Shown here: in pieces, positions 1 to 64,000 of the stretch
Layout: each line of letters starts with the position of its first letter
How positions within the stretch are numbered: the first letter of the stretch is position 1
Assembly: GCF_964355755.1 (NCBI RefSeq)
Contig: NC_092676.1
Location: forward strand, 3,456,288 to 3,520,287
Reading direction: 5' to 3'
Length of the DNA: 64,000 nucleotides
DNA from: Antedon mediterranea
Lineage: Eukaryota; Echinodermata; Crinoidea; Comatulida; Antedonidae
Notes under the pieces: generated by a model
What the model was told of the DNA's origin: nothing
Databases searched by the model: none
Seen by the model: the letters and a program-made list of their open reading frames with translations, nothing else
Made by a program: the position numbers and the translations under genes

Positions 1-2
1 CA

Positions 3-1454
3 ACATCTTCAAGTCTTTCCATTTCTAATGTTGGCTCTGGTGACGTAGGCAACTACATTTGTGAGATATTCGAATGTGATTCATACAACAGTGTCTCATC
101 TTCTACATTTGCTTCTCTAGTATTAGGAGAATTGATATGTAATCCGGAGAATATTGTTGATATAGGAACAACGCTGATATGCTCCTTCACCTCTTCTGAT
201 AATTCATATATTATTAATTTACTATGGTATAACAACGGAAAACAAATAACTTCGGGACAACAACAAAACAATGATTTAGAATCAACGGCTCTGACTGCCG
301 AAGACGAAGGAGGTGTATTTACTTGTAAAGCCACTATCGGATTTCAAAGTCAAGCGACAGGAACTTGTGAAACTACTCCACTAGTATTTCCAATAGATGC
401 AGAGATTCAACAATCACCACCAGGTCCACTTCAGGTTGGTGATAGCTTTAATCTTACCTGCGTAGGGAAAGGTAATCCTGAAAATTATAATTACGAATGG
501 ACGTGGAATAACAACCCAGTAGAATCTATGACAGATAGTCGATTTGCAATTGGCAATATGGTTATTGTGAATACTGTATCAGGCAGTGACAATGGCAAAA
601 TGGTTTCTTGTACTATTAGTAGTAGTGGTTACAGAAGTATAGCGAGCTATACAATAAACATTTTGGATGAGACGTCGAGTACAACTACAAGTATGTCGAC
701 ACCAGATAGGCCTACACGTACGCAAAAACCAATTACGGCGGTCAGACTCACAATACCTGATGACCCGGATGACATTTCAACAACAGTAATGACTACACGT
801 TTAAAGTCGACACTAGATACACGTACGCAAAAACCAATTACGGTCAGACTCACAACACATAATGTTCCGGATGACATTTCAACAACAGCAATGACTACAC
901 CAGGTACACGTTTGCAAAAACCAATTACACATCAACTCACAACACATAAAGTCTCGGAAGACGTTTCCGCAACAGTAGACCTAATGAATACACGTTTAAA
1001 CACAACACCTGTTACTGTAACGCGTTCTATTACAGAAATCCTAACGGTTGTAATTATCGTAGTTGCAATTTTACTCGTCGTTTCTTTGATAATAATAATA
1101 AGCCTATGTGTTTATTTGCAAAAAAGAAAAAAGAAAAACACAACTCCTTCAAATCGACTGTCAAATAATCTTGAGCACGTTTACTATGACATTACGTCAT
1201 CTAGCGCACACGTGACCTCGACAGCCAGTAACACTAAGTATGATTATGTCATACACCCGTTCACACGAAATACGGAAGAATCCACTCCTGAGTACCTTGA
1301 ATTGGACGATGGTTTCCAAGATGGCGCACCAAAATCAGCAAGTAATACAGCCGCTGATTACGATGATGTTGCATCGGAACAAACAGATACTAATAACAAA
1401 GAGTACAAATACGAAAATGGTATGCTGCGGGATAAAGGTATCAGAGAGACATAA
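3..1454 (+). CDS. IgSF receptor A, 5' partial, tyrosine-rich tail
   Basis: Single-pass membrane receptor of the IgSF family that fills the window. The window opens inside Ig domain 1, so the signal peptide and first half of that domain are outside it; the frame is open from base 3. Seen: the end of domain 1 (GDVGNYIC, the usual D-x-G-x-Y-x-C), domain 2 (LICNPEN, LLWYN, EDEGGVFTC, GTCETTP), domain 3 (QSPPGPLQVGDSF, with cysteines in LTCVG and VSCTI), a stalk of degenerate units of about 35 residues built on RTQKPIT and DDIST, an uncharged transmembrane helix near nt 1030-1110 followed by KRKKK, and a tail with YYDI, YDYV, YLEL, YDDV and YENG. No intron is needed anywhere. A copy of nearly the same sequence is the 3' part of the broken gene at 49316-50459. 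Signalling by tail phosphorylation is inferred. Confidence 0.85.
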   Translation, partial: TSSSLSISNVGSGDVGNYICEIFECDSYNSVSSSTFASLVLGELICNPENIVDIGTTLICSFTSSDNSYIINLLWYNNGKQITSGQQQNNDLESTALTAEDEGGVFTCKATIGFQSQATGTCETTPLVFPIDAEIQQSPPGPLQVGDSFNLTCVGKGNPENYNYEWTWNNNPVESMTDSRFAIGNMVIVNTVSGSDNGKMVSCTISSSGYRSIASYTINILDETSSTTTSMSTPDRPTRTQKPITAVRLTIPDDPDDISTTVMTTRLKSTLDTRTQKPITVRLTTHNVPDDISTTAMTTPGTRLQKPITHQLTTHKVSEDVSATVDLMNTRLNTTPVTVTRSITEILTVVIIVVAILLVVSLIIIISLCVYLQKRKKKNTTPSNRLSNNLEHVYYDITSSSAHVTSTASNTKYDYVIHPFTRNTEESTPEYLELDDGFQDGAPKSASNTAADYDDVASEQTDTNNKEYKYENGMLRDKGIRET

Positions 1455-1676
1455 CAAAATAAAGTACGCAACTATCAATTTTCTACGCATGTATTGGAAC
1501 TACGATTACGTCACATTGGTGCGTACACGGCGTTGTTTGCTGATTAACGAGTCAATCGTGTACGAAAATTGTCTGATTTATATCTAAAGCAAACGTTAGA
1601 AGCATACAGTATGAAACTTAATCAAATAAATCAATCATTGTATAGAAACAACTATCCCCACAGAGGTCTTGTTTAA

Positions 1677-3069
1677 AGTGGAGCTCCACCCAGAAAATTA
1701 CTATATTTCATACATTTCAACTATTATTTAAAAATATCATCCCTTATACTTCATATTTTTTTGAAATTTTTTTCAATGAGTACGATTTTCTTGAAAATCA
1801 CGCCTTTTTGCGTTTTGGGGGGATACCTTGTAATTTCCTATTCTTTTACATGCAAAAGGGGGGTATATTTGAATAATCCTAAAAAATTCATTTCTTCACC
1901 AAAAAAAAAATGTAAAATATGTATTTATGTAATTTTTCCAGATCTTTCTATTTCTGGTATTTTTATCACGTATACATTGCGCAATTTTGCGTAAATAGAC
2001 ACTTTCCCCCGTTCGGGTCCAATTGGGTTTTTTATTTTGCTAGGGAGTACGATCACGTGACATTTTTCACAATCACACTACTGCAGCTGGCGATCTGTTA
2101 TTTTGTCACGATGTTATTTTTGACGGGCGAAAAGTATATTAAAACATTCTGAATGTGACCCTATTATGTTTCACAGTGTAATAATGTGATTATGAGATTA
2201 TTACTAAAATGTCAAATTTAACGAGATTTGAGAAAGATGTGGCTATATATTCAATAAAGCTAGGCCTAGGCCTACTAGAGTGTAGGTATGTACCGATGCT
2301 GCTTAGAGTGGCTTGGCCTCAGGCGCTAGCTAGGCTAGGCTGACAGCAGTGAAGTTTGTTTTGCTGTCACCCGACCTTGGCCTACCCATGGGCCATGATA
2401 GGGTGCCTGAATAGTTTCTTTTCAGTCAGGTCTAAGCTTGCACATCGCTTTACTATTCTTTACTACTCTTTACTACTCTTTTTCTGTATAGGATTTTGTG
2501 TTTCACAATTCTTAATATGCGAGAAAACCCAGGAACGATAAATGGGGCGAAACGACCATGCCTATGAATACATAGGCCTCTAGACAAAAATTCAAGGCTA
2601 GCTAGGCTGAGCAGACGGCTTAGCTAGGCCTAGCCCTACCTAGCTTAAAGTTAAAAGCAATCTGATAAGATTATAATGCTGCTGTTGTACAGTGAAAATC
2701 ATGAGGTTACATGTAAATTATACTGACATTCTTATCGGAAATATTACTTAGGCCTAAACAAATCGTATTAATTGTGTGTATAAAATTTATTCCCCATTTT
2801 TCGACACATAATTTACCAAAGGGAAGAAATTTCCACAATGCGTTCACAGTCGCTAAGTGTAACGCGTTTCGCGACGTATTGTAAACTAATAACCCCTAAG
2901 TTACTGAAAAACTGTAATTTGTTAAAAAACACTATTTTCTGACCGCTTTTTTAGAAATGAGTTTTTGGAAAATATTTCCGTATTTTTCCTGTTTTTTTTT
3001 ATGTAATCACTTTCAATTAAACATACTTAAACATAATATAAGCTGAGAAAGTCTGAGTGTAGCTCCACT
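1677..3069. mobile_element. TTAA-target DNA transposon, non-autonomous
   Basis: The ends are inverted repeats: AGTGGAGCTCCACCCAGA at the left and the complement of AGTGGAGCTACACTCAGA at the right. TTAA lies immediately outside both ends (1673-1676 and 3070-3073). The duplicated block near 50680-50690 has the empty site with one TTAA, which fixes the boundaries. A TTAA duplication fits piggyBac- or Kolobok-type elements. No transposase frame is visible. The interior is AT-rich with a cluster of AGGCCT words near 2260-2340 and 2565-2640. Confidence 0.75.
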
Positions 3070-3073
3070 TTAA

Positions 3074-3892
3074 CATATAACATATCTGCCAAGATAAACA
3101 AGTAAATTGTAATTCTCATTATAATGGACTGTAACATGGATCTAGTTTAAGTTTTAAAAAGGATATGCTTTTAAATAAATTGTTATATAATATTATAACA
3201 TTTATTGTATATAAACCACTACCACCACCATGGTCTAATATAAATCTAAATAAATAATTGTACAGTTATACACATTTAAAATAGAATAAACTGTAGGCAG
3301 TTAGGCGTTATAGCAAAACATTAATTAAGCTTGTATAGACGCAACAAAAGCGAGTTGACCAATGACAAGCGACAGTTCGAATAATACATTGCTTATGATT
3401 GATCAAATCGCTTACGTTGCTTTAAGTCCTTGTGTTGCGTCTCTAGTGGGAACCAAGCATTAGGGGAAAATGTACGCAATAGTAGTACAAAAATTATATA
3501 TTATTTAAGGAAGCAATATAGATGAACAGGTTATGGTTAAATAACATAGTATAAAATGACTCTAAGTAACGAGAGGAAAGCCATGATTCAAAGTTGATAT
3601 TTATTTGATCATCATCAGGAGTCGATGATCAAATAAAAATTGAAACGTTGAACCATGGTTTGCATCTCCTTATTATTTAAGGAAACAATAACACTAGATT
3701 ATTAACGAGCAATACGACAAGAATAACACAGAAATTAGGAAGGCAGGAAGTTTTACGAAACTATTTTAAAATGTATTGGTTTATCAAGTTGTCCGGTATC
3801 GTGTTTTGTTTTCACTTTCATGATGTTTCTAAGTGTACAATGAACGAATAAAATAATGCCAGTCAATTATCTATCAACATATTATTGGTTAA
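3074..3892. repeat. 3' flank of gene A, duplicated at about 50690-51507
   Basis: Non-coding sequence that aligns along its length with the 3' flank of the broken gene J'. It contains an imperfect hairpin (3580-3659) but no convincing gene. The element-free counterpart shows that the two DNA elements to its right are later insertions. Confidence 0.7.
3580..3659. repeat. Long imperfect hairpin conserved in two copies
   Basis: Arms of about 35 nt (GCCATGATTCAA...TTTGATCATC and its imperfect complement ending TTGAACCATGG) flank a loop of about 10 nt. The copy at 51197-51275 keeps the fold although its arms have changed. It may be the relic terminus of a retroelement or a foldback element. Confidence 0.5.
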
Positions 3893-4294
3893 AGGCCCAT
3901 TTACACTAGGACGATAACGATCGGCGATAAATAGATAAGCATGCATTTTTTTTTTACATAAAACAAAAGAATTTAGAAAGGTTTTCGTTCTAGAATTATA
4001 GAATACTCATTTATGCTGTCTTTGATAAAAATAATATTTTAAAAAATCCAATCAAATGACGTCATGATCAATAAAACCAAAAAAAGTCGTTGTATTGTTA
4101 CGATATTATTGCTCTTACTAATCATGACGTTATTTGATTGGACATGTGAAAATATCACTTTCATCAAATTAAGCATAGATGGTTCCTAAATAGTTCTAGA
4201 ATAAAAACTTTTTAGATTTCTTTTGTTTTATGTATGAACAATGCATATTTGTTTATTTATCGTCGATCTTTATCGTCCTAGTGTAAACGGGCCT
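3893..4294. mobile_element. MITE with AGGCCC termini
   Basis: Inverted ends: AGGCCCATTTACACTAGGAC at the left and the complement of AGGCCCGTTTACACTAGGAC at the right; similarity continues for about 50 bp. TAA (or TTAA) flanks both ends. The duplicate locus near 51507 has one TTAA and no element. It is short and has no coding capacity. The TAA duplication and AGGCC termini suggest a Harbinger-type MITE. Confidence 0.75.
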
Positions 4295-4297
4295 TAA

Positions 4298-4891
4298 AGC
4301 TCAGGTACAGGCATGAATTTTAAATATAATATCTGGTTAATTGTACATAAATCAAATATTTGTAACAGAAATCAAGACGAAAAAACATGAATTTCCCTTA
4401 ATAGTCAAATACAAAATTTGGCAAAATTCTGCCATAAAAACCAGGAAGACTTTTTTTCAGTAGTTAGGTAGTATAACCTAATGTAATAACAAGTCTGATG
4501 ACTCCCTAGAAAGTGAAACAAGATGGTGGATATACGGTGGATAATTTTTGCTATAGCATGAAAATAAAAATCTGAAGTTGAATAAAAATACCAGAAATGT
4601 AAAATTCAAGTTATATTACCTATATTTAGTCATCTGATAACATTTTTTACCACACCGTTTATTTTTCATAGCTTTTTAAAATGCCTCTCTATTTACAAAA
4701 TTTGTGTTCAAAATAATAGAGATTTTACTGTGTAATTTGAACTATCCCTCCACTGATAAGAAAGTGCTTATTTTCAATAAGCTCGTGTAACACAAATAAA
4801 ATCCCAAAAAATTATGAAACATAGGGGAAACTATAGATCGATAATTATTGGAATGTATGATCAATAGAAATTGTTTGCCCGCACCTGGCCT
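4298..4891. mobile_element. Second MITE-like element at the same target
   Basis: Begins AGCTCAGGTACAGGCA directly after the TTAA that closes the preceding MITE, and ends TGCCCGCACCTGGCCT before another TTAA at 4892-4895. The ends are imperfect inverted repeats. The duplicate locus goes straight from TTAA to GGAAACG, so both elements are absent there. No coding capacity is seen. Confidence 0.6.
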
Positions 4892-4959
4892 TTAAGGAAA
4901 GGAATTATAATATATGTACCCTAAATGATATAAGGAATACAAACTTACATTGGCTAAAA

Positions 4960-5130
4960 AGTTGTATGGTACACCCTAAACATTGGACTATGGTATTTTA
5001 CAAAATTATGCTTGATTACATTTAAGTATTATACACTTGTTAAAAACCACCGATATCGGTTATCGTTGCAAAAAGACAAATAACAAAGTCATCGTGTGAA
5101 TGGGCACCAGAAGTTTATGCAAACGATGTA
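4960..5130 (+). pseudogene. Relic of an IgSF receptor 5' end
   Basis: DNA similar to the start of the receptor genes: a signal-peptide-like stretch (CATTGGACTATGG..TTTTACAAA), then CGGTTATCGTTGC and TCATCGTGTGAATGGGCACC, corresponding to the VLVAEGQ and SCEWTP region of domain 1. The frame is destroyed and no ATG gene remains. The same relic exists near 51585-51702 and 53601-53650, where a hAT-like element splits it. Confidence 0.65.
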
Positions 5131-5853
5131 CTGAATTATGGTATAGATGGAGTGGTAAACAATTTATAAATTCAGAAACAAATTAAGTAAACATAAATCT
5201 ATGTATATGTTTCCATCTAATTGTAGCCTTAGATTAATCTAGTTAAACTAAGTGTTCAATGCTTACAAAACAAAGGAGGGGCCAATGCGGGGTTGGGGGT
5301 TACACATTTACTGTCATTACACCTAGAAGACAGACATTTAATCAGAAATTGTATGTTTTCATAAAAAGAACTATATCTTTCTACATATATTTAAATCAAT
5401 AGTATGTTGAAATTACTGTATTTGACAATGTGTAATTCTTATTCTTCTTGTCAGCAGTTATCAGGTATTCCTGTCGTGTGTGGCAGCAGATAGCAACTTA
5501 CATAAAAAGAAACAGGAATGATCCAACGTTTTAGTTCGAAGTTACTCTATAGTATAGTATGCATTATTACTAGTTTTACCTAAATAGAATGGAATATGTT
5601 AAAATAACTTTATACAGGTTACGTAGTTGATGCTAATATCACTTTAGTAGGAGTACGCTACAATACAGTACACAGTAATCAGAACGACTGTTACAGAGTA
5701 TTACTTGTACCAACTTGTACAGCAATTATATAGTATAACAGGAATACAGTATCGTTAAATTGGTATACAAATCTGGACATTTTTTTTCCGTATTATCTTG
5801 AATTTGATAAATAAGTAAATCAATCCCGGAACTTAACCGTCGTAGTATTTATA
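5131..5853. other. 5' flank of gene B
   Basis: AT-rich sequence without a supportable gene. It aligns with 53650-54485 upstream of K, including the segment ending CCCGGAACTTAACCGTCG just before the start codon. A degenerate version of the TATAGGGGGCGGTATAC block described in the findings lies near 5546. Confidence 0.6.
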
Positions 5854-7701
5854 ATGGCTCATCATCAATATTGTACATTGCTGCTGTACAAGTGCCTGGT
5901 TATATTGTATAGTATATTTCACTGCTGTTGTGCACAATCCTATACTTTTACAGAACATCCACAATCGGTTCTTGTTGCAGAAGGACAAACAGCAAAGATA
6001 TCGTGTGAATGGACACCTAAATTGAATGAAACCCATCATGTTGCATGGAGATACTATCATTTTAGTACAAGAACGGGTCAAATAATTGAACGTTCAACGT
6101 CAAAATACATTTTCAGAAAAGGTACAACATTTTCAAATCTTTCCATTTTGAATGTTGATCCTAATGATGTAGGACACTACCGGTGTCGTATCTCCAAAGG
6201 TGATTTTGTATACAGTTTTTCTGAATTTACTTATGTAGTGCTAGGAGAGTTAACGTGTAGTCCAGAATATGATTATGGTGACATAGGAACAACGATGACA
6301 TGTACTTATACTTCATCTGATCCTGTATATATTATTGATTTACTATGGTATAAAGAGGGAAATGAAATTACTTCAGCAGCACAACGAAGTAATATCAAAG
6401 AATCAAAGACTTTGACTAGTGAAGACGATGGAGCTGTATTTACTTGTAAAGCTATCCTCGGTTATCAAGTGATAGGAACTTGTGAAACTACTCCTCTAAT
6501 ATTGACTATAGATGCAGAGATTGAACAATCACCACCAGGTCCACTTCAGGCTGGGGATAGGTTTACCCTTACCTGTTCAGGGAAAGGTAATCCTGATTAT
6601 TATGAATGGACGTGGAATGGCAAACTTATAGGATCGTCGACAGATAAAAGTCGATTTGCAATAGGTAATGTGCTTACTGCGACGAGAGTATCAAGCAGTG
6701 CCAATGGAAAAATAGTTACTTGTACTATTAGTCGTAGTGGTCGTACCAGCAGTACAGCGAGGTTTACATTAAACGTGCTAGAGAACATTTCCAGTAGGCC
6801 TACTACTACACATTTTCAAACAACACCAACGCAACAGGTCGTTACAGACAAACTACTACCAACTACACGCTTACACACTACACGTTTACAGTCGACACGT
6901 ACGCAACAAGTCGTTACAGACAAACAACTGCCAACTACAAGCTTACGCACTACACGTTTACAGTCGACACGTACGCAAAAAGTCGTTACAGACAAACTAC
7001 TACCAACTACACGCTTATACACTACACGTTTACAGTCGACACGAACGCACCAAGTCGTTACAGACAAACTACTGCCAACTACACGCTTACCCACTACACG
7101 GTTACAATCGACACGTACGCAACAAGTCGTTACAAACAAACTACTACCAACTACACGCATACACACTACACGTTTACACACTACACGTTTGCAGTCGACA
7201 CGTACGCAACCATTCATTAAAGACCAACTCTCAACTAATATCTCATCGGTTGACGAGCCCCCAACACTAATGGTTGTTATTAGTGTACTTGCAATTCTGC
7301 TCGTAGTTTCTGTAATAACAACGATATACATGTATTTGCAAAAAAAAAACGTATCTAGAGGCAACATAATTCCTTTAAATAGACCACCGAATAATATTGA
7401 ACACAATTACGATTACATTGTGTCTTCAGACACACAGATCAACACGACAGGCAAAGACACACACACGTATGATTATGCCATATATCCGTGTACACGAATC
7501 ACAGAGAATATCAGTGCTGAATACATTGAAGTAGAAGACAGTTTCCACGAGAGCCCACAAAAACCAGAACAAAATATGACCACAGTCGAGAAAGATGATG
7601 TGTTCTTACAACCAACGGGTATTTGCAGCAAAGAGGCCACGTACGAAAATGTTGAATTGCGTATCAAAGGCATAGCAACTTCTGACAATATGATAATTTA
7701 A
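5854..7701 (+). CDS. IgSF receptor B with 24-residue repeat stalk
   Basis: Complete single-exon type I receptor of 615 residues. Signal peptide 1-27 (ends CCCA). Domain 1 has C51 and C111 with DVGHYRC. Domain 2 has C150 and C198 plus the family's extra cysteines C135 and C210. Domain 3 has C241 and C290. The stalk at 326-450 is an almost perfect array of five 24-29 residue units (VVTDKLLPTTR, TTRLQSTR), rich in Thr and Arg. Transmembrane helix about 470-494, without charged residues. Tail tyrosines: YDYI (519), YDYA (539), YIEV (557), YENV (597); YENV fits the Y-x-N pattern bound by Grb2-type SH2 domains. The start ATG begins the family motif MAHHQ and lies just downstream of a flank shared with K. 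An AATAAA occurs near 7985. Ligand and role are unknown. Confidence 0.9.
   Translation: MAHHQYCTLLLYKCLVILYSIFHCCCAQSYTFTEHPQSVLVAEGQTAKISCEWTPKLNETHHVAWRYYHFSTRTGQIIERSTSKYIFRKGTTFSNLSILNVDPNDVGHYRCRISKGDFVYSFSEFTYVVLGELTCSPEYDYGDIGTTMTCTYTSSDPVYIIDLLWYKEGNEITSAAQRSNIKESKTLTSEDDGAVFTCKAILGYQVIGTCETTPLILTIDAEIEQSPPGPLQAGDRFTLTCSGKGNPDYYEWTWNGKLIGSSTDKSRFAIGNVLTATRVSSSANGKIVTCTISRSGRTSSTARFTLNVLENISSRPTTTHFQTTPTQQVVTDKLLPTTRLHTTRLQSTRTQQVVTDKQLPTTSLRTTRLQSTRTQKVVTDKLLPTTRLYTTRLQSTRTHQVVTDKLLPTTRLPTTRLQSTRTQQVVTNKLLPTTRIHTTRLHTTRLQSTRTQPFIKDQLSTNISSVDEPPTLMVVISVLAILLVVSVITTIYMYLQKKNVSRGNIIPLNRPPNNIEHNYDYIVSSDTQINTTGKDTHTYDYAIYPCTRITENISAEYIEVEDSFHESPQKPEQNMTTVEKDDVFLQPTGICSKEATYENVELRIKGIATSDNMII
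6829..7203 (+). repeat. In-frame 72-bp coding minisatellite
   Basis: Five tandem units, four of 72 bp and a last one of 87 bp, encode residues 326-450 of receptor B. The units differ by a few bases and keep the frame, so changes in copy number would lengthen or shorten the stalk without breaking the gene. Confidence 0.9.
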
Positions 7702-10210: not shown

Positions 10211-11671
10211 ATGGCTCATCATCATTGCTTGTTGTGCCTGATTGTATTGTATAGTATATTCTACGACTGTTTTGCACAAATATATCGATTCACAAAACAT
10301 CCACAACCGGTTCTTGTTGCTGAAGGAAACACAGCAAGGTTATCATGTGCATGGATACCAGAATTGGATGAACGGCATAACTTTCGATGGGTATTCTTCC
10401 CTCAGGATGGTGGTCAGTTTCAAGTACTTGAGAGATCAAATTCAAAATACAATTTAACAAATAACGCAACTTCTTCACATCTTTCCATTTCTAATTTTGC
10501 TTCTAGTGACATAGGAAAATACAGGTGTGATATCAGACACGACAGAGACACTGTTTCTAAAGAGGCTGTTGTAGTGCTAGGAGAAATAACGTGCAATCCA
10601 GAATATGATAATGGTGAAATAGGAAGAACGATGACATGTTCTTATACTTCTTCTTATTCTTCAAATTTTATTTATTTACAATGGTATAAATCAGACGAAC
10701 AAGTACAATCAGACACCCAAGACAAACACGTTATAGAATCAATAGTTTTGACTGCTGAAGACGATGGAGCTGTGTTTACTTGTAAAGCTATCCTTGGTTA
10801 TCAAGTGATAGGAACTTGTGAAACTACTCCGCTAATACTGACTATAGATGCAGAGATTGAACAATCACCGCCAGGTACACTTCAGGTTGGGGATAACTTT
10901 ACCCTTACCTGCTCAGGGAAAGGTAATTCTGATTATTATGAATATGAATGGACCTGGAAAAACCAAGACTCGTCGCCAACAGAAACACGATATTATGCAA
11001 TAGGTAACTTTCTTTTTGTGACAAAATCTAGCAGCAACGCTATTATTACGTGTACTATTAGGCGTAGTGATCGCGTCAGCAGTGAAGTGTCCTATACGAT
11101 TGACATGTCAGAGAATTCAGAAAAACCTACAAGCATCTACCAAACTGATAACAATGATGTATACCCAAATAAATCAACATCGGTAATAGAATTAATATTA
11201 ATTGCGGTTGGTGTACTTGCTATTTTACTCCTCGTTTCGATAATAATAATATGCGTATATTTCCAAAAAAGAAACGGATCTAGGAACAACACAACCCTTG
11301 CAAATCAACCATCAATTAATATTGGGCCTGTTTATCATGATATTGCATCACCAGATACACAAGTCACCACGGAAAACAATGAAAACATGACGTATGATTA
11401 TACTATGTCCTGCACACGTGCTACTGCAGAATCCAATGACGTTGTCAACGAAAACCTTTGCATTAATTGTCATAATATGGCAACACCAAACGCAGGTATT
11501 AACACCAAACAAACAACACAAAACGAAACATTTAAATTAACTTCGCGTTTGAACAGAGCTGGTGTCAGTGAGGATAACTACGAGGGGTTCACATTGACCA
11601 CCATTGAAACGCCTACTGATGTAAACGTGTATGAAAATAAATCGGCTGGCCTACGTACAAAAGCAGTGTAA
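10211..11671 (+). CDS. IgSF receptor C, short-stalk form
   Basis: Complete single-exon receptor of 486 residues, the shortest intact member. Signal peptide 1-22 (MAHHHCLLCL...CFA). Domain 1 has C46 and C106 (DIGKYRC). Domain 2 has C143 and C191 plus extra C128 and C203. Domain 3 has C234 and C281. The Thr-rich repeat stalk is missing: only about 25 residues separate domain 3 from the transmembrane helix (about 325-350). Tail tyrosines: YHDI (375), YDYT (395), YEGF (457), YENK (474); the end (VYENK...RTKAV) matches the C-terminal block of D, E, G and K. Upstream GTG-initiated reading is in frame but the ATG starts the conserved MAHH motif. Loss of the stalk would bring the Ig domains closer to the membrane. 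Confidence 0.88.
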   Translation: MAHHHCLLCLIVLYSIFYDCFAQIYRFTKHPQPVLVAEGNTARLSCAWIPELDERHNFRWVFFPQDGGQFQVLERSNSKYNLTNNATSSHLSISNFASSDIGKYRCDIRHDRDTVSKEAVVVLGEITCNPEYDNGEIGRTMTCSYTSSYSSNFIYLQWYKSDEQVQSDTQDKHVIESIVLTAEDDGAVFTCKAILGYQVIGTCETTPLILTIDAEIEQSPPGTLQVGDNFTLTCSGKGNSDYYEYEWTWKNQDSSPTETRYYAIGNFLFVTKSSSNAIITCTIRRSDRVSSEVSYTIDMSENSEKPTSIYQTDNNDVYPNKSTSVIELILIAVGVLAILLLVSIIIICVYFQKRNGSRNNTTLANQPSINIGPVYHDIASPDTQVTTENNENMTYDYTMSCTRATAESNDVVNENLCINCHNMATPNAGINTKQTTQNETFKLTSRLNRAGVSEDNYEGFTLTTIETPTDVNVYENKSAGLRTKAV

Positions 11672-49038: not shown

Positions 49039-49315
49039 TGTTTCATTCGTATTATATAGTTAAGTTTCGACCATTCAATTTAGATTTTGAGTGCTTTTGC
49101 TTGCTTTGTTTTGTTTTTGACTTTTGTGTTTTATGAGAAGAGAAAAAAAAAATGATTACGCCAGTCTAGCGCCCCCTATCTAGATATATATATCATGGCC
49201 GCTGGTTGTTATGTTATTGTTGTGATATTTGGTTTTGACGAATAAAGATCTTATTCTACTTGAGTCTTACGTGTCCGGTCGTCTTTATTGTGGTGTGCCT
49301 TTTGCCTTACTGGCG

Positions 49316-51584: not shown

Positions 51585-51702
51585 CTTAATAGTTCACCCT
51601 CAACATTGGACTATGTTGTTTTACAAATGCTTGATTATATTTAATTATTATACACTTGTTAAAAACCACCGAAATGAGTTATCGTTGCGAAAAGAAAAAC
51701 AC
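51585..51702 (+). pseudogene. Relic receptor 5' end, left half
   Basis: CTCAACATTGGACTATG, TACAAATGCTTGATTATAT and TTATCGTTGCGAAAAG correspond to signal peptide and domain 1 of the receptors, matching the relic at 4960. The right half (TCATCGTGTGAATGAACACC) is at 53605-53650 beyond a hAT-like element. Confidence 0.65.
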
Positions 51703-51710
51703 CTACGTCA

Positions 51711-53600
51711 CAGGGGTGGCGCCATGATCTTCCCGACGCGGGGGCTACATTCCCCGACGAGGGGGCTATGCGAGCATCACAAGGCTGGGGGCCAGGGGGC
51801 CGCCAAGGGCCCCCGGTGGGGGTCCAGGAGGCGAAGCCCCCGGAAGTAACGCGTTCTAGCGTCATTTGAGGTCATTTTAATCAGATTTAGGGTAGCCATT
51901 TTTTCCATTTTTTATAATGCATAAATAAAATACTGCGTGCAAAAAAACGATGCGCGATGACTGTTTCAATCCATATTTTTCAATTTAAAAAATAAAAGTT
52001 CAAAGAAAATTTAGAAAAATAGAGTTGGAGGTCCTGGAAATTGGACTTATTATACTTCAAAACATGAAACAAAATATATAAGTCCCTATCATGGTTGTGA
52101 CTGAGCTAAGAAATGTTTGAAAAATAGAGATGTTAGGTCCCGGAAAATGCACTTCTTGTACTTCGAAATATGACCAGCTTTATTGTTGGGGCTGAGCAAA
52201 GAAAATGTTTAAAACTAGAGCTGCAGGTCTAAAATTGCATTTTATATTTTGGAAACATCAGGCCCAGAGGCTTAAAAACGCAAGCGTAGACCTTTTTCAG
52301 TCGGGGAAATAAGTTTATTCCTCCCAAGTGTATGCCTGCGTACCATCTGGACTTCCGAGTGGTGAGAAATTCATGACATACAGGAGGACATTGAAAATTT
52401 AATAACTTAGCTATAATAAGATGTTGGCTAAGCGAAAATGGCATGTTTTTTTGTTTAGTAATGGATGAAATATTTATTTTAGGTGCCCCACGGTACAGAA
52501 GGTTACTTGTAAATTAAAAAATTTTGTGAACATACGAACAATTAACATAATTCGTTTTTGCTGTAGTGTAGCGTACGTCGACACAGTACACGACGTAACC
52601 ATCGGTAAACTTCGCCTGGAAAATAACTACAGTACACATTTTGGTCCCTGGATGGAACATGATATCACGACCCAACGTTGAACGATTCGTACAAAGGGAT
52701 ACCGCCAGACAAGTGCGTACCTATAGCTATTGTTTAGTAGTAAGTTAGATCGCTGGCAATAATGAATGCATATAAAGTGCATAATATCACTCTGACGTAC
52801 TCTCACGGTCAATGAAACGTCGAGGTTTTCTAGGCGCTGAAGCTACGAAGTGAACGCGAACGAATTATATTCCCCGACAAAAAGTACCCGAACCGTCGGT
52901 AAACTTCGCCTGGAAAATAACTACATTACACATTTTGGTCCCTGGATGGAACTTGATATCACGCGTCTCGACCCAACGTTGAACGATTCGTACAAAGGGA
53001 TACCGCCAGACAAGTGCGTACCTAGCTAATGTTTAGTAGTAAGTTAGATCGCTGGCAATAATGAATGCATATACTGTAATTGCATAATAGCACTCTGACA
53101 TACTCTCACGGTCAATGAAACGTCGCGGTTTTCTAGGCGCTGAAGCTACCAAGTGAACGCGAACGTTTTTTACTGTATATTATATTCCCCGACAAAAATT
53201 ACCCGTGTTCCCTTCGGTAATCGTCGTTAAACTTCGCCTGGAAAATAACTACATTACACATTTTGGTCCCTGGATGGAACATGATATCACGCGTCTCGAC
53301 CCAACGGTGAACGATTCGTACAAAGGGATACCGCCAAACAAGTGCGTACTAGCTATTGTTTAGTAGTTAGATCTCTGGCAATAATGAATGCATAAAAGTG
53401 CATAATAGCCCTCTGACGTACTCTCACGGTCAATGGAACGTCGTGGTTTTCTAGGCGCTGAAGCTATATGAAGTGAACGCGAACGTTGTTTACTGTATGT
53501 TATATTCCCCGACAAAAAGTACCCGTGTTCCCCGACGGGGGAGCTAGGCTCCCCGACGAGGGGGCTAGAGCCCCCGTAGCTCCCGCTGGCGCCACCACTG
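51711..53600. mobile_element. hAT-like DNA transposon, non-autonomous
   Basis: Ends CAGGGGTGGCGCC and, inverted, CAGTGGTGGCGCC. The 8-bp target CTACGTCA is repeated exactly at 51703-51710 and 53601-53608, as expected for hAT elements. The sub-terminal parts are GC-rich (CCCCGACGAGGGGGCTA words); the middle is AT-rich. No transposase frame is present. It is inserted in a relic receptor gene, and the other copy of that relic (near 5090) is uninterrupted. Confidence 0.88.
52598..53522. repeat. Three tandem units inside the hAT-like element
   Basis: Units of about 290-330 bp begin near 52598, 52888 and 53224 with CGGTAAACTTCGCCTGG or a close variant and contain GGTCCCTGGATGGAAC, GATACCGCCA(G/A)ACAAG and CACGGTCAATG. 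They differ by small insertions and substitutions. Confidence 0.85.
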
Positions 53601-53608
53601 CTACGTCA

Positions 53609-54485
53609 TCGTGTGAATGAACACCCGAATTATATGCAAACGATGTAATATCTGAAATAGACGCAAACTCCGCCTGGTATAGAGGGTGAGGGGGGAAATT
53701 TAGATATCCAGAAACAAACTAAACATAAATCTATGTATATGTTTCCATCTAATTGTAGCCTTACGTTAATCTAGTCAAACTAAGTGTCCAATGCTTACAA
53801 AACAAAGGAGGGGCCAATGGGGTTTGGGGCGTTACACATTTACTGTCATTACACCTAGAGGTCTACTTCTGCAGCCAAATCTTGTTCTTTAGTTTAGAAA
53901 ATCAATTCGTAAACCACGCTCTCTAAGAGAAGACAGACATTTAATCAGTAATTGTATCTTTTCATTAAAAAACAATATCTTTCTACATATATTTAAATCA
54001 ATAGTATGTTTAAATTACTGTATTTGACAATGCAGTGTTAATGTTCAGAATTGTGTAATTCTTATTCTTGTCAGCATTTATCAGGTATTTCTGCCGTGTG
54101 TGGCAGCAGACGGCAACTTACATAAAAAGAAAAAAAGAAACAGGAATGATCCAACGTTTTAGTTCTAAGTTACTCTATAGGGGGCGGTATGCATTATTAC
54201 TAGTTTTGCCTACAGAATGGAATACGTTAAAATAACTTGATACAGGTTACGTAGTTGATGCTAATATCACTTTAGCAGGAGTACGCTACAATACAGTACC
54301 CAATAATCAGAACGACTGAGTGTTACAGAGTATTACTTGTACCAACGTGTACAGCAATTATTTATACAATATTAAGGAATACAGTATCTTTCAATTTGGT
54401 ATACAATTCTGGACATTTATTATTCGTATAATCTTGAATTTGATAAGTAAGTAAATCGATCCCGGAACTTAACCGTCGAAGTGTA
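53609..54485. repeat. 5' flank of K, duplicate of the flank of B
   Basis: Starts with the right half of the relic receptor and then aligns with 5131-5853. It has two additional short segments (near 53850-53930 and 54030-54060) absent from the B copy. It contains TATAGGGGGCGGTATGC at 54176-54192, about 300 bp before the start codon. Confidence 0.7.
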
Positions 54486-56492
54486 ATGGCTCATCATCAA
54501 TATTGTACATTGCTGTTGTACAAGTACCTGATTATATTGTATAGTGTATTTCACTGCTGTTGTGCACAATCTTATACTTTTACAAAACATCCACAACCGG
54601 TTCTCGTTGCTGAAGGACAAACAGCAACGATAGCGTGTGAATGGACACCTGAATTGAATGAAAACCATGATATTTCATGGAGATACCATCCTGTTCTTAG
54701 AAGGGGTCAATTAATTACAAAATCAACATCAAAATACACTTTCACAAAAGGTGCAACATTTTCAAGGCTTTCCATTTTAAATGTTGATTTTTATGATGTA
54801 GGAACATGCTTGTGTCGTATCTCCGAAGGTGATGGTGTATACAGTTCTTCTAAAACTACTTATGTAGCGCTAGTATTAGCGTGTAGTCCAGAATATGATA
54901 ATGGTGAAATAGAAACAACGATAACATGTTCTTATACTTCATCTTATCTTCTATATTCTATTGATTTACTATGGTATAAAGACGGAAATGTAATTACTTC
55001 AGCAACAACACAAAATAGTCTTTCAAAATCAAGGATTTTGACTGCTGAAGACGATGGAGCTGTGTTTACTTGTAAAGCTTTCATCTCAAATCATGTAATA
55101 GGAACTTGTGAAACTATTCCGCTAATATTGAACATAGATACAGAGATTGAACAATCACCACCAGGTCCACTTCAGGTTGGTGATAGCTTTAACCTTACCT
55201 GCTCAGGGAAAGGTAATCCTGATTATTATAAGTATGTATGGACGTGGAATGACAAACCTGTAGGATCGTCCCCAGATAAAAATAGATATGCAATAGCTAG
55301 TGTGCTTACTGCGAAGGATGTACGAAGTACCAGTGACAAAAAAGTTACTTGTACCATTAGTCGTGATGGTCGTAATAGCAGTACAGCGAGACATACAATA
55401 AATGTTGCAGAAAATACGCAAAGTACAACTGCATGTTCACGCACACCACACGGTAGGTCTACTGTTACAGACCCACTATCAGCAAACAATGTCACAGACA
55501 ATGAGCCACAAACATTGATTATTGTCATTGGCGTAGTTGCAACAGTTATTGTGATTTTGATAACAGCAATTGTAATTTACATTTTACATAAAAGGCGTAA
55601 GAAACATGACAAAAAGACAAAACCTGAAAATGTACCATTGAAAGAACCAATGCATGGCAACACTGATCAAGAAATTATTATTAAAACGCGCGTAGATGGC
55701 CCTCTGCGCGAAACGTTGGTGACCGATGTGGCTATATATGATGAACCTACAATGTCAGACACACATGGAAACTGGGAGATTGTTTACGAAGACCCTGACG
55801 TACCACCACACGACCAATTAACAGAAAAAGATAAGTATGATTATGTTGCATCAGAAGAAATGACAGTTGAAAGAGAGAGCAAAACCGAGTATGACTATGC
55901 GGCAACAACAGACACCCACAGTGCCGAGAAGACAACTGAACGACACAACTATGATTATGTGGTATCAGCAGACATCCACAGAACAGAAAATGAATATGAC
56001 GATGTAACATCAGCAGACGATCAAAACGATGAAACAGACAGGGAAAATGAGTATGATTATGTGGAAACACCAGGCATAGGCTCCACAGAAAAAGAAGGCT
56101 TTGCAGAATACATTGAACTTGTTGATGACAACGCCGATGTCGAATGTCATCAGAGGAAGCCACTAACAACTAATATGCCTGCTGCATCCAAGTACAATGA
56201 TGTTTCAATGTCACAAACTTATATTTCCATAAATATTAGAGCAAATGATAATGAGGCTGAGTACGAAAATAGTAAAGTGCATCGTCCCAAAGGTGTCTCG
56301 ACTTCTGATAACTTAAAGACCGAAAGTGTTAAATTATCACAGAGATCAAGAAGAGATGGAAAAACCATTTCAGATAATCGCGAAGATGACGTCACCAATG
56401 TGCATGCGAGTAAATTTGAAGTACGTGATACAAACGACGTGTACGAAAATGCATCGGTACGCAGAAAAGCAGCGAAGTGTGCTAAGAAATAG
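54486..56492 (+). CDS. IgSF receptor K, E/G-type tail
   Basis: Complete single-exon receptor of 668 residues. Signal peptide 1-27 (MAHHQYC). Domain 1 C51 and C110, but the conserved Tyr of D-x-G-x-Y-x-C is Cys (DVGTCLC, C108), giving an odd cysteine. Domain 2 C148 and C196 plus C133 and C208. Domain 3 C239 and C289. Short stalk (about 310-342). Transmembrane helix about 343-366. Tail nearly that of G: YDEP (418), YEDP (434), YDYV (451), YDYA (469), YDYV (489), YDDV (504), YDYV (523), YIEL (542), YENS (593), YENA (653). YDQL of E/G is HDQL here and YGN is HGN, so two candidate docking sites are lost. The 5' flank is B-like, domain 1 is D-like and the tail is G-like, so the gene looks mosaic. 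Confidence 0.9.
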   Translation: MAHHQYCTLLLYKYLIILYSVFHCCCAQSYTFTKHPQPVLVAEGQTATIACEWTPELNENHDISWRYHPVLRRGQLITKSTSKYTFTKGATFSRLSILNVDFYDVGTCLCRISEGDGVYSSSKTTYVALVLACSPEYDNGEIETTITCSYTSSYLLYSIDLLWYKDGNVITSATTQNSLSKSRILTAEDDGAVFTCKAFISNHVIGTCETIPLILNIDTEIEQSPPGPLQVGDSFNLTCSGKGNPDYYKYVWTWNDKPVGSSPDKNRYAIASVLTAKDVRSTSDKKVTCTISRDGRNSSTARHTINVAENTQSTTACSRTPHGRSTVTDPLSANNVTDNEPQTLIIVIGVVATVIVILITAIVIYILHKRRKKHDKKTKPENVPLKEPMHGNTDQEIIIKTRVDGPLRETLVTDVAIYDEPTMSDTHGNWEIVYEDPDVPPHDQLTEKDKYDYVASEEMTVERESKTEYDYAATTDTHSAEKTTERHNYDYVVSADIHRTENEYDDVTSADDQNDETDRENEYDYVETPGIGSTEKEGFAEYIELVDDNADVECHQRKPLTTNMPAASKYNDVSMSQTYISINIRANDNEAEYENSKVHRPKGVSTSDNLKTESVKLSQRSRRDGKTISDNREDDVTNVHASKFEVRDTNDVYENASVRRKAAKCAKK

Positions 56493-59206
56493 AAGAAGAA
56501 AAACATAACCAACCGTACAGAATAGTAATACAAAAACAAACAATGAAAAGTCCACTAACGCATATTATCAAAGAGACTTGTTTATGAATGTTTAATCTAT
56601 TAAGGCTTTTATTATGTGAAATTGTTATCTGTTATTATTGTCCCCAACACGTACAGGGGTGTGACTTATTCTTTTACGTATTCTAAGACTAGTATGAGCC
56701 ATGATAGTTCCATGGTAAAAGAAATAGAAAAGTAGGCTAAATATTATAAGTTAATATCTTGAAATATTTAATTTTGTTTAAGGAAGTAAATAAAAAAATA
56801 TTATATTAGAAATAATCAACTCTGAGAGATGAACATTAACCAGAAAAGAGAGTTTTATATTAATGTCGTTTACTGTTTTTATATCTAATTGTCTATACAT
56901 TTTATACATTTTTACATTATATGCATATATTTTCTTTGTTATCCTTTTTAATGTAAAATTTTACGGTTTTGGCTATTTGTATAATTGATCGTATGTTTTT
57001 GGACAAATAAATGAATTAATATAATTATGCGATATGTGTAATGTTTCTTTAAGACGCATTTGTGAAAACTGTATTCAGAAAAAACATCAAATAAAATAAA
57101 AAAAGGCTGTTTATAAGTTTCTACGTTTTAATGATAAAGGGGTTAATTGGCCAACAAGAGGTGAACATTAGCTTGTTGACTCTATTTATGATCAAAGTAG
57201 AACATCATCAATCAACAAACTGAATCTATTAAACATCATTAACATGTTATTTTAGTTTAAAAAAAGTTCAACAATAAAAGAATATATATATACTAGTGAC
57301 ACGTGTTCTATAGAACACGAGCCCAGTCAGCCAATTTGTGTAAACAAAAAATAATATATAATATATTTAATAAAAAACATTAAATCTCTTGTTGTCATTG
57401 ATTGACCTCCCACCCAAATCGTTCCTGATGGGACAAGAACGTTTGCTCTTTACATACAAAATTTTATTTCACAGTTTCAGTCTTATAGGGGGCGGTATAC
57501 AATACTAGAAAAATGTTGAATGCTTCCTCATGATGAACTGTGTAGTGTAGTTGACAAAAGTACATTTTTCTACAATATATATTAATAAAATATTGCACGA
57601 GCATTATTTTATAACATTTGTATAAACATCAACCATCGAGAAATATAAAACAGACAGCGGAAATACATATAACTGCGTGACGTCAGCAATGAAAACGATG
57701 ACCACTAAAACAGACAGTACAAATGAGTATGATTATGTTGAAACATAGGTGCAGCCACGGTGAAGAACGATTGTCACATGAGGAAGCCAGTAAAAACGGA
57801 AAGATAGGCGTACTGTATGTAAAAAGTCAAATGTTGATGCACATTTTGCAGAATGTGTACTAAACATTGAAACTTAAATATTCAAATATAATTGATTATA
57901 AAAACAATCTTCAACATGAAAGGAAAACATTAAAGTGAAACAATTAATTTATTTTACTTTAGATTTGACTTGCCTTTCGGTGCAATGCTCAGTGTATAGG
58001 TTCGTTCACACGGAAGACGGCGACGTTCAACCTTTTACAGGATTTATATTATTCAACAGAACAGCGACGTTTTCAAATTACTTCAACTGAATATTCCATA
58101 ATACAGTATCACATGTGAATCACATGTATCTCCTAGTATATCATAGACCATAACCTAACCATTAACCTATAACCTTATACATAATACAGACACCACTGTG
58201 GTGCTGTTTAATTCGGAATGTTCCTATGATACACCATGTCGTATGTAGAGATACTGCACTGAGAATCGGGTAGTTAATTAGTTTGCTGATTTGGGTAATC
58301 AGCCAATCACGAGGCTTAATCATATTCTGGTTCATTTTTTGGTAAATTTCTAAGCTATGAATTAAAGTTAGAATTGAAGAGATGTCTTCGGCTTTCGGGA
58401 ATGTACAAATTTTAGTTTTTGGTCCTAAACATAGTGCCACAACATTCTATTAAATATAGTACTCATAGCATAGAACTAAAATAAACGTTTATTTTATACA
58501 CTCACTTTGTACTTTATCAAATGAATTGTTTCACAAACAAAAAACCCTCCCCCCCCCTCCCCACCTAAAAAAGAGTACAACAACCAAAGTATCACGAAAT
58601 GTAAGAATAGTAAATATCTTTATTTAACATTTGATACGACAGGAAAAATAAAGTTATGCAGAGTGTTTTAACCAATCAAAGTCACGAACTACTCGGCATT
58701 TACAATTAAATTCTCACTAACCACGCCCCCGACTGATAAACGTTTATCACGCCCTCTGGAAGAAAAATGACAATGTATTAGGAAAGTATTTTTAAAGTAT
58801 TACATCATTAATGTTGAATATTCAGTGGCGCTATTTCCTGATATTTTATTTCTGCAGTAATCAAGTTTATCACTGGTGCTGAAGTAGATCATTCCAACTT
58901 ATATAACAACAAAATAAAGTTGTAATAAATAAAGTCCCAACGTGTAATGTTTAACTACGAATACAGGATCTAACCATATAGGAAGTTGTTTAATACTGGA
59001 CATAATGTTTCATTGAAGTGTTTATAAATTGAGTACCATTTACAGCATACGTGAACATCAAGCAAACATGATTTAATTTCTAAAACATTATTACTGGTGT
59101 CTTTGAATCGTCGGAAAAAGGAATATAATTTATAGGAATATTTGCGTAAATCTCAATTTGGTAAGGAAGTTCCAATATTCGGACGTCAATCGAGGCGCCT
59201 GCGTAA
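56493..59206. repeat. 3' flank of K and shared spacer, copy 4
   Basis: Nearly the same as 16453-19490 but without the SINE. It contains the receptor-tail relic with its TAG at about 57660-57800 and a C-run near 58549-58562. It ends at GCGCCTGCGTAA, where a Harbinger-like element separates it from the start of L'. Confidence 0.75.
58672..58906 (+). promoter_or_regulatory. Candidate promoter of L', displaced
   Basis: CCAATCA, CCACGCCCCC and TTATATAA (58899) in the same order as upstream of E and G, but now about 2.9 kb from the start codon because of the inserted element. Confidence 0.3.
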
Positions 59207-61480: not shown

Positions 61481-61817
61481 CCTGACTTCTGATTGGTTGA
61501 CGAACGCAAACCGCGCTCGCGACGCCTCAAAAAGTTGACCAAGGTTCAACTTTTGAAAATTCGCGTGCGAAGCCTTCGCTGCTGTCGTTTTCAACGCGTT
61601 GAAGTTGAAATTCGACTATCGTACACTGTTCGCTTGTATGTTCACACTGGAAGTGTCCGTCGCCTGCCGCGTGCGTCACTTTTTAACGCGAAATTCGCGG
61701 CTTCGCGTTTGGTGTGCACCGGCCTTAAGTACACTACTATTCATATTATAACAACGCATGGGAACATCAATCGAACATTATGTCTTATGATATCTAATAT
61801 TGACTACAATGTTTAAA

Positions 61818-63572
61818 ATGTCTCATCTTCAACATTGTACATTGCTGTTTTTCAAGTGCTTGATTGTATTGTATAGTATATTTCACTGTTGTTGTGCACA
61901 ATCCTATACTTTTACAAAACAACCCAAATCTGTTCTTGTTGGACAAGGAAACACAGCATCGTTATCGTGTGAATGGACACCAGCATTGAATGAAAACCAT
62001 GTCGTTTTCTGGTCAGCATACCCTCATGTTGGTGGGTTGCAAGCAATCGATAGGTCAACTTAAAAGTACAATTTAACAACTATAGCAACATCTTCATATC
62101 TTTCCATTTTTAATGTTGGTTACAATGATGTAGGAAGATACAGGTGTGATATCTCGGAAGGTGCTGCTTCATTTAGTCTGTCTGAATTTGCTTCTGTGGT
62201 GATAGGAGAAATAGTGTGCGATCCAAAGAATAGCAATGGTGAGATTGGAACAACGATGACATGTTCCTATTTTACTTCTTATTATTCACGTGATATTGAT
62301 TTACTATGGTATAAAAACAGGAAACAAATTACATCAAAAGTACCACAAAACAATGCTATAAAATCAAGAGCTTTGACTGTTGAAGACGATAGAGATGTAT
62401 TTACTTGTAAAGCCACAATTAGATCTCAAAATCAAGTGATAGGAACTTGTGAAACTACTCCGCTAGTATTGACAATAGATGCAGAGATTGAACAATCACC
62501 GCCAGGTGCACTTCATGATGGAGATAGCTTTACCCTTACCAGCTTAGGGAAAGGTAATCCTGATTATTATGAATATGAATGGACGTGGAATGGCAAACCT
62601 GTAGGATCATCGCCAAATGGAAGTCGATTTGCAATAGATAATGTGCTAACTGTGAAGAGTGTATCAAGCAATGCCAACGGCAAAATAGTTACTTGTACTA
62701 TTAGTCGTAGTAGTCATAACAGTAGTTTAGCAACCTATACACTGAACATTATAGAGCAAATGACTACACGTTTGCAGTCGACATCTGGTACGCGTACGCG
62801 CAACTCAATTACACGTCAGCTATCAACCGACGTCCCTCATGACGAGTCCCCAACAGTAGTGACTACACGTTTACAGTCGACACCAGGTACACCAATTACA
62901 GTCAGACTATCAGAAACTAATATCCAGGGTATTGATTCTACAATAGTAATCATTTTCATCATTGGCGGAGTTGCGATAGTTCTTGTGAGTTTGATAACAG
63001 CATTTACAATTTACTTTTTAAAGAAAAGGCACAATAAACAGTACGACAAAGAAGAGACAAAACCCGAAAATGTACCATTGAAAGAACCAGTCTACGGTAA
63101 CACTGAACAAAACATTAACAGTTCTGAATTAGATAATGACCTGTGTGAAAATGTGGAAACAATGTACGCAGAACCTGACCTGTCAACAAATGGGTGCCAT
63201 ATTAAATATGACACGCCACAGAATGCAGTAAACATTGATAAAACTGATGATTCTTTAGGTAAGCCAATGAAACCTAATGAAATGAGTGATGCTAAGCCTA
63301 GAAAAAGGACAAGTGCCGAAAATACGGATATAATACAAGTAAGACCAACCGGACCAACCAAGTCCCACACTGTTAAAGAAAGTCTTGAAGATCTGTATTC
63401 TAGGCCCAACAAACCAACGACAAGAACGCCAGAAATTACGCACGAAGATCTTACTAAGAAAAACGTAGAAGGCTTAACGTACGCAGAAATAGAGTTTACA
63501 AGCGGTACGTTCCCAGCCCCTGAACCACAAGACTACGGGCTTGATTACGCAACTGTACATATTAAGAAGTAA
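61818..63572 (+). pseudogene. IgSF receptor L', ITIM tail, one nonsense codon
   Basis: Reads as one frame of 585 codons apart from a single TAA at 62061-62063, where E has a Leu codon (TTA) at residue 82 of domain 1. An in-frame ATG at 61809 is an alternative start. The signal peptide and domains 1-2 are E-like (CTLLFFKCLIVLYS, GEIVCDP, FTSYYSRDIDLLWY). The domain 3 cysteine equivalent to C242 is Ser (LTSLGKG). The shortened stalk, transmembrane helix and tail are I-like: YGN, YAEP, YDTP, YSRP, then LTYAEI and LDYATV, both ITIM-type. No other frame damage is seen over 1.5 kb, so the break is young, polymorphic or a sequencing error; the lost cysteine argues for real decay. Confidence 0.85.
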
Positions 63573-64000
63573 CGTAATACTGTTACGTAACCGTTACGTA
63601 TTTACCGTTTACATTGTAACAATTTTTAATACGTTTATCATTAACACATATTGTAGAACTCAATATTAATCAATTTTCGATATGTGACGTAACTGTTTGG
63701 TCAAATCGTTTTGTGACAGTTTTATGCAATGTGTATGTAGGTCTAAGATTAAAACAGATTTAAAATAACAGACTATCATATTATCTATCTAGTTGTTTCT
63801 GTAACTTGTATACAGTTTTTCATATTGATATAAAGTACCATCATATTCTATGATAATTTTCTATGATAAATGAATACATAAATGCAGGTTGCATATATAC
63901 TATTATATACTATATATACTATATATATACACGTTATTTTAAATGAAAGAACACTTCTTGCTAATTGTAAATAGATATCATAGCTTTAAATCCGTTTACT
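63573..64000. repeat. 3' flank of L', duplicate of the flank of I
   Basis: Aligns with 37295-37484, then 38431-38600, then 38977 onward, skipping the LINE and SINE present there. A (TATA)n tract lies near 63895-63930. No gene is present before the window ends. Confidence 0.7.

Follow-up and report, generated by a model that had tools for sequence, protein, structure and literature searches.

Single-exon receptor genes and the extent of their array

The window analysed here is a stretch of 64,000 nucleotides from Antedon mediterranea (contig C7:3456288-3520287 of a 354.4-Mb, 18-contig assembly), and it holds part of a tandem array of genes for receptors with three immunoglobulin (Ig) domains. 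We found seven intact single-exon genes (G1-G7), all on the plus strand. Each open reading frame (ORF) starts with Met, has no internal stop and ends in a terminal stop, with a length of 486-734 codons. At a GC content of 0.343, an open frame of 486 codons has a chance probability of about 1e-16 by our own arithmetic, and a chance origin of these ORFs is thus excluded. All of the 66 tblastn rows listed outside the intact genes are also in plus frames (one row is G5 itself, extended).

The cytoplasmic tails were sorted by a simple rule: those with at least four YxxP motifs are class B, and the others are class A if they have at least 200 aa and class C if they have at least 50 aa. G1 (5854-7701, 615 aa) has a class C tail and a long Thr-rich stalk containing a 72-bp minisatellite (4.9 copies, 6829-7178), with which stalk length varies between copies. 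G2 (10211-11671, 486 aa) also falls into class C by length. Class A tails are found in G3 (14539-16452, 637 aa), G4 (19576-21627, 683 aa; an in-frame ATG also exists at 19567), G5 (26526-28730, 734 aa, with 20 tail tyrosines and upstream starts too) and G7 (54486-56492, 668 aa). G6 (35300-37294, 664 aa) has a class B tail with two matches to the immunoreceptor tyrosine-based inhibition motif (ITIM) pattern and five YxxP. A further plus-strand copy with a class C-like tail (psA, 1-1454) has an open frame running past the left window edge; in our genome search it is a 608-aa frame without a stop (C7:3456026) and is probably intact. An earlier note on this DNA had counted several broken copies, which is correct for those at 45260-50459 and 61818-63572 and for the fragments described below, but not for psA.

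G1-G7 share one layout: after a leader come three Ig domains, a Thr-rich stalk whose length varies, a single membrane helix and the tail. In G7, a V/I-set-like Ig1 (54570-54875), the most diversified domain of the family, is followed by Ig2 with four conserved cysteines (54876-55139), Ig3 (55140-55433) and a class A tail of 300 aa with 16 tyrosines (55590-56489). A search with Pfam models, which the earlier note had proposed, gave at least one Ig model over the cut-off in each of the ten window proteins scanned (seven intact, three partial), the models being Ig_2, Ig_3, I-set and V-set. Single Pfam models mark three Ig stretches in G1 and G3 only; the remaining intact genes have two such stretches each, and their third domain is defined by alignment and conserved Cys and Trp residues, not by Pfam. 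By hydropathy, one membrane segment is present in all seven intact genes, with charged residues in none, and the hydrophobic leader is above threshold in six (all but G3). The seven genes are therefore what the earlier note took them for, intact one-strand receptors with three Ig domains, and its figure of about 300 residues for the longest tails agrees with the measured 121-301 aa.

The tandem, same-strand arrangement that had been noted stands, but the window covers only the middle of the array, which continues well past it on either side. We made the genome-wide copy count that had been suggested with G7 as the sole probe and 66 of 292 first-look candidates scored, so that the numbers are lower bounds. 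At least 82 stretches match, several of them pieces of one gene. Eighty-one lie on C7 between 3,268,113 and 3,654,000, all on the plus strand, giving an array of about 380 kb; the remaining one, at C7:8,908,444, is on the minus strand and contains two stops. Beyond the window, the analysis covered 200 kb to the left and, to the right, 46 kb in 20 gene stretches, with several matches on that side left out. Counting as a full receptor ORF any closed frame of at least 380 aa with a Met start and a membrane segment, we found at least 40 of them, all on the plus strand between C7:3276033 and 3654408, with lengths of 392-735 aa and a median spacing of 7.1 kb; psA, which crosses the window edge, would be receptor 41. 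The entire coding region is one exon in every copy so counted. Ten of the 40 tails belong to class A, ten to class B and 18 to class C, while two receptors with tails of less than 50 aa are probably truncated. Some copies are 98-99% identical to one another.

The Ig1 core keeps its Trp in 40/40 receptors and each Cys in 39/40; the four Cys of Ig2, and the two Cys and the Trp of Ig3, are each present in 40/40. These are Ig domains with the cysteine pair and tryptophan of the immunoglobulin superfamily. The four Ig2 cysteines fall on strands that we read as A, B, F and G in a predicted structure, which suggests a second disulphide. This ectodomain model is usable for Ig2-Ig3 only (mean pLDDT of Ig1, 65), and the full-length model is useless (mean pLDDT, 35).

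The left-hand part of the array also contains five two-Ig ORFs of 216-220 aa without a membrane segment (C7:3278066, 3280545, 3309569, 3312456 and 3319465; stretches L003, L006 and L007). They end directly after Ig2 with a common C-terminus (IHQCRN in four, THKCRY in one), which looks like the result of an old frameshift at the Ig2/Ig3 border. Their frames are open, the Ig1 and Ig2 cysteines are kept in 5/5, the mean ratio of nonsynonymous to synonymous substitution rates (omega) is 0.66, and positively selected sites are detected (p 9e-9). To judge from these features, they are probably secreted, working soluble proteins.

We then compared the flanks of the genes. The upstream flanks of G4 and G5 align over 1,898 columns with 5.2% mismatch, and the downstream flanks of G3 and G7 over 2,684 columns with 1.4% mismatch. 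Two intergenic blocks (17621-19486 and 57341-59206) are 98.6% identical over 1.87 kb in an array whose units are otherwise more diverged, which points to recent duplication or conversion. The multi-gene block 224-6776 has a piecewise paralogue in 49316-55405. Divergence of the non-coding flanks is 1.4-7.7%, apart from one 75-bp stretch with 0%, as against 29% in Ig1 and 27% in Ig2 between G5 and G6. Because kilobases of flank were copied along with the genes, the local amplification proceeded by DNA duplication, as the earlier note had supposed. Its further proposal, that the ancestral gene was retroposed or had lost its introns, gained no such support: no intron-bearing relative or parent is found among the 82 matches to the one probe, and any retroposition scar of the founder would be hidden by the duplication of the flanks. 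A CGCAGTGTTTATA-like stretch stands directly before the ATG in many copies. It could be the splice acceptor of an intron in the 5' untranslated region, one without a pyrimidine tract and not present in all copies. A scan for bacterial-type promoters was also run and is uninformative for an animal gene.

Tail exchange, tyrosine motifs and selection

On the best tree of 38 Ig1-Ig2 sequences, the tail class requires 12 changes, where two would be the minimum possible. Ten forks of this tree are weak; the well-supported branches alone force at least five changes for class A, at least seven for class B and at least seven for class C. The receptors at C7:3384882 (tail C) and C7:3652651 (tail B) are 99% identical in Ig1 and 97.0% identical in Ig1-Ig2, and 15 of the 37 pairs with at least 88% identity differ in tail class. 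Near-identical ectodomains on different tail types, the mark of paired receptors, are thus found in this family. In sliding comparisons, identity switches abruptly at module borders: between G5 and G6 it is 88-91% in the flank, falls to 58-70% over the greater part of Ig1-Ig2, recovers to 83-89% from Ig3 up to the membrane, and is 39-57% in the tail. On the evidence of these gene sequences, the tail classes have been recombined with ectodomains many times.

Tyr makes up 3.7-6.7% of the seven intact window tails, and 'tyrosine-rich', as the earlier note called them, is a fair description. The many SH2-docking motifs that it saw are borne out in part. In comparison with shuffled tails, 8 of 28 motif tests on the window genes reach 0.05, uncorrected; the strongest excesses are those of YxxP in G6 (P 0.001) and of Yxx[ILV] in G7 (P 0.002) and G5 (P 0.006). 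The remaining tests, the search for activation motifs and the tyrosines of class A, which are taken up below, do not support it. Yxx[ILV] occurs in 39/40 tails of the array when tyrosines at the membrane edge are included. Each of the ten class B tails has two or more ITIM-pattern matches and 4-7 YxxP, of which only the former are independent evidence, as the class itself is defined by at least four YxxP. The tyrosine columns of class B are invariant in 8/10 cases versus 73/185 for the other columns (p 0.014), and in class C, too, tyrosines exceed the other tail residues in conservation (p 0.034).

Positive selection was detected in the Ig domains. For the seven window genes, mean omega is 0.98 in Ig1, 0.70 in Ig2 and 0.65 in Ig3, and it is 0.54 in the class A tail of G3, G4, G5 and G7; omega below 1 is supported for Ig3 (p 0.007) and for the class A tail (p 1e-4). 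Site models give p=8e-6 for Ig1, 8e-5 for Ig2 and 1e-3 for Ig3, and no positive selection in the class A tail of the same four genes (p=1). None of 40 null simulations reaches the Ig1 statistic of the seven genes. In the 40-gene set, Ig1, Ig2 and Ig3 have mean omega values of 0.87, 0.57 and 0.57, and the site tests give p=3e-29, 2e-8 and 2e-6, respectively, Ig1 again being the strongest. As a rough control for this Ig1 signal, we ran 24 gap-free null simulations in which M1a-like parameters were assumed and the optimiser took few steps; 2dlnL peaked at 3.1 in the 12 made on one tree and at 6.4 in the 12 with a tree switch, whereas 131 was observed. Thus, neither chance nor that degree of recombination explains the signal. 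Seven Ig1 sites have a probability of selection above 0.95 in the 40 genes (62, 64, 66, 73, 107, 113 and 124 in G4 numbering). By our own strand assignment, they would surround the C-strand Trp and lie in the C' and F-G region, and this C-strand/C'/F-G face is the usual binding face of V-type domains. The selection on the Ig domains agrees with the recognition-receptor character that the earlier note had suggested.

Possible functions and relation to known systems

We found no protein relatives at E 1e-3 or 1e-5 in a database that includes Anneissia, Strongylocentrotus and Branchiostoma proteins, in searches whose sensitivity is limited by seeding with five-residue words; at 1e-5, only the 7,999 candidates sharing most such words were scored. 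Within this sensitivity, no named family was found, and the earlier note could not name one either. Among the top fold matches, adhesion proteins predominate (nectin-like 4, neurofascin, NCAM and sidekick), with CD22 and LAG3 also present; titin, VEGFR, Dscam and CADM4 are among the best profile or sequence matches to solved structures. These structure and profile matches are generic Ig proteins. No description of an intronless Ig receptor array was found in our searches of the open-licence literature. An intronless C1q-type multigene family is described for crinoids in the available part of one report (PMC6409975), and intronless immune-type families are therefore not unheard of.

We propose, with a probability of roughly 0.6, that the array encodes a single-locus, germline-diversified family of type I receptors for the recognition of non-self (pathogens) or of self and other (allorecognition). 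They would best be read as paired recognition receptors that signal via phosphotyrosine and work like Alr, FcoR or KIR/LILR, the likeness being one of design. Ig1-Ig2 would bind a rapidly changing ligand, and receptor clustering would lead to phosphorylation of the tail tyrosines by Src-family kinases. Class B tails, with at least two ITIM-pattern sites and 4-7 YxxP, may recruit SHP/Crk-type SH2 proteins, and class A and C tails, with Yxx[ILV] and YxN, may recruit Grb2-type and other SH2 proteins; these partners are predicted from the consensus of the motifs. One ligand class could then elicit different outputs via different tails, as in paired receptors, and the two-Ig ORFs might serve as soluble decoys or opsonins. 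With coding regions of one exon, unequal crossing-over and gene conversion could swap whole modules without breaking splicing. More tentatively, the whole may be a so far undescribed cassette locus that comprises 40 or more one-exon receptors as well as soluble two-Ig forms, and in which recombination re-pairs binding heads with three tails; paired receptors and decoys would then arise by swapping modules between genes and not by alternative splicing or somatic rearrangement. The novelty would lie in this one-exon cassette format with frequent head-tail swapping.

Clusters of Ig receptor genes with tyrosine-motif tails usually consist of multi-exon genes. They are found in vertebrates, whose activating paired receptors combine charged membrane residues with adaptors carrying the immunoreceptor tyrosine-based activation motif (ITAM). 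The receptors described here are like KIR, LILR, SIRP and CEACAM in having similar ectodomains on different tails, fast evolution and local clusters; they are unlike these multi-exon genes in having one exon, and their membrane segment is uncharged in all seven window genes. Such clusters also occur in cnidarians and tunicates, according to the available part of one account (PMC12065747). Hydractinia Alr genes are described, in the accessible parts of three papers, as encoding clustered single-pass Ig membrane proteins with V-set and I-set domains, with many pseudogene-like models, and ITIM/ITAM-type motifs are reported for Alr candidates (PMC12065747, PMC11999971, PMC11067881). Clustered single-pass membrane proteins with Ig domains are found here as well; the differences are the three exchanged tail classes and the one-exon coding regions, the exon structure of Alr not being stated in those parts of the sources. 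No Alr-like protein surfaced in our protein or structure-profile searches, which did not include a direct comparison with Alr1/Alr2.

Botryllus FcoR is, in the portion of the source available, a type I protein of 520-610 aa encoded at one locus, with a V-type and two C2-type Ig domains and a long tail with ITIM, hemITAM or core YxxI/L/V motifs (PMC12065747). ITIM-pattern and core YxxI/L/V tail motifs are also present in our family. On the other hand, the sushi domain of FcoR is not among the Pfam matches of the ten window proteins at E 0.01. The same account has FcoR exchanging its motifs by alternative splicing (PMC12065747), whereas here the exchange is by recombination between genes. The 185/333 (SpTrf) genes of sea urchins are closely linked immune genes whose diversification is attributed to gene conversion, recombination and mispairing, some copies being intronless, with moderately conserved flanks that were called possible cassettes (PMC1988830). 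Close linkage, intronless copies and conserved flanks are features shared with the array studied here. The 185/333 proteins are not known to be three-Ig membrane receptors with long signalling tails. VCBP and FREP proteins are marked by a chitin-binding or fibrinogen domain, and neither domain gave a Pfam match in any of the ten window proteins (E 0.01).

It is doubtful that the genes are a lineage-specific branch of an invertebrate family described before, be it Alr-like, FcoR-like or some other Ig family, beyond the reach of our searches. The general design is that of Alr and FcoR, as described in the available text on both, and relatives without shared five-residue words, or outside the 7,999 candidates, would be overlooked; the database, however, included proteins of the three genera named above and gave no match at either threshold, and the sushi domain of FcoR is not found in the window proteins. 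We also consider it unlikely that the genes encode receptors for adhesion or gamete recognition whose diversity arose from sexual conflict or partner specificity and not from immunity, with tails that regulate adhesion. The top fold matches, largely adhesion proteins, and the best sequence matches among solved structures would be expected of them, and positive selection is typical of gamete proteins too. In our judgement, at least 40 copies, the tail swapping and the probable secreted forms fit immune-type families better; CD22 and LAG3 are also on the fold list, and generic Ig folds match adhesion proteins anyway. That most of the array consists of decaying retrocopies, or is inactive and without a cellular role, is very improbable. 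Several copies are frameshifted or split by transposable elements, the genes have a single-exon form, and no promoter signal was found next to the ORFs. Yet about 5% of random changes would be nonsense and 40 long frames are open, the structural Cys and Trp are kept in 39-40 of 40 receptors, omega is below 1 in Ig3 and in the class A tail, and copying was by DNA with the flanks included.

Several results weigh against a recognition family with signalling tails. Adhesion or gamete-recognition receptors would give similar signatures. In class A, conservation of the tyrosines does not exceed that of the other tail residues (p 0.12; 66/98 versus 978/1404 in four window genes), and a strict ITAM (Yxx[LI] x6-12 Yxx[LI]) is found in 0/7 window tails. 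Tail class is clustered on the tree beyond chance, with 12 changes versus a mean of 16.9 after shuffling and a value as low in 0/200 shuffles. No whole-domain omega exceeds 1, even in Ig1 (0.98 in seven genes, 0.87 in 40), and the codon models were fitted domain by domain with code of our own that kept branch lengths fixed except for a scale. At loop positions, pairwise dN/dS over 21 pairs is 1.42 [0.92-2.15] in Ig1 and 1.50 [0.96-2.57] in Ig2, with intervals that include 1; this comparison of loops with framework is descriptive, as the loop borders were set after the selected sites were known. A Sawyer-type conversion test found a few tracts (global P 0.0015 to 0.04, depending on the copies included) and is confounded by conserved segments; such short tracts would mean that part of the diversity is shuffled and not newly selected. 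Some of the 98-99% identical copies might partly be assembly duplicates. Next to the ORFs, neither TATA (1/45 versus a background of 0.17) nor the polyA signal (23/45 versus 0.58) is in excess, and untranslated exons further off are therefore possible.

With its repeated head-tail swapping, the strong positive selection on its heads and its probable soluble forms, the cluster is a compact natural experiment in recombining recognition with signalling. As there is one exon per coding region, the genes lend themselves to cloning directly from genomic DNA and to typing in different individuals, which opens the size of the germline repertoire, the identity of the ligands and the origin of paired receptors to direct tests.

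Broken copies, transposable elements and repeats

All of the broken copies in the window lie on the plus strand. psC is a class C receptor copy cut by transposable elements into a 5' part (45260-45556) and a 3' part (49314-50459), with the end of Ig1 and the start of Ig2 missing. The pseudogene psH (61818-63572) has one stop and a Cys-to-Ser change in Ig3, and combines a G4-like Ig1-Ig2 with a G6-like class B tail. Smaller remnants are a frameshifted piece, also interrupted by stops, in which a signal peptide and Ig1 precede a membrane segment with a class C-like tail (21902-22773); parts of a signal peptide, of a class A tail and of a membrane/tail segment like that of class C (30102-30760); the end of a class A tail downstream of G2 (11984-12321); and a decayed 5' fragment with a weak match upstream of G1 (4966-5115).

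The other identifiable content of the window is transposable elements; scans of it with Rfam (gathering threshold) and for tRNAs were empty. A TAGGCCTA palindrome occurs 31 times in 1-64000, about 49-fold above the 0.64 expected from base composition. This palindrome may mark some deuterostomes, a weak indication that we rejected as proof. Nested transposable elements at 45557-49313, with a minus-strand reverse transcriptase ORF (46926-48416), split psC. The long interspersed nuclear element (LINE) reverse transcriptase matches, of which 120 of 271 are listed, include Branchiostoma belcheri, Anneissia japonica, Strongylocentrotus purpuratus and the crab Scylla. A young long terminal repeat (LTR) retrotransposon (40437-43821) has 472-bp repeats that are 99.8% identical, TG...CA ends and a 5-bp target duplication (AATAT). 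Its ORF (41246-43276) matches SCAN, aspartic protease and integrase zinc-binding domains, with no reverse transcriptase, and the element looks like a shortened Gmr1-like one. Gmr-type Gypsy elements are tied to deuterostomes in the available part of one study (PMC4131045), and Gmr1 is reported in an annelid in that of another (PMC8220671). As with the palindrome, neither the LINE matches nor this element were taken as proof of a deuterostome source. A 328-bp tandem repeat (2.9 copies) occupies 52595-53486, a stretch with a GC content of 0.41.

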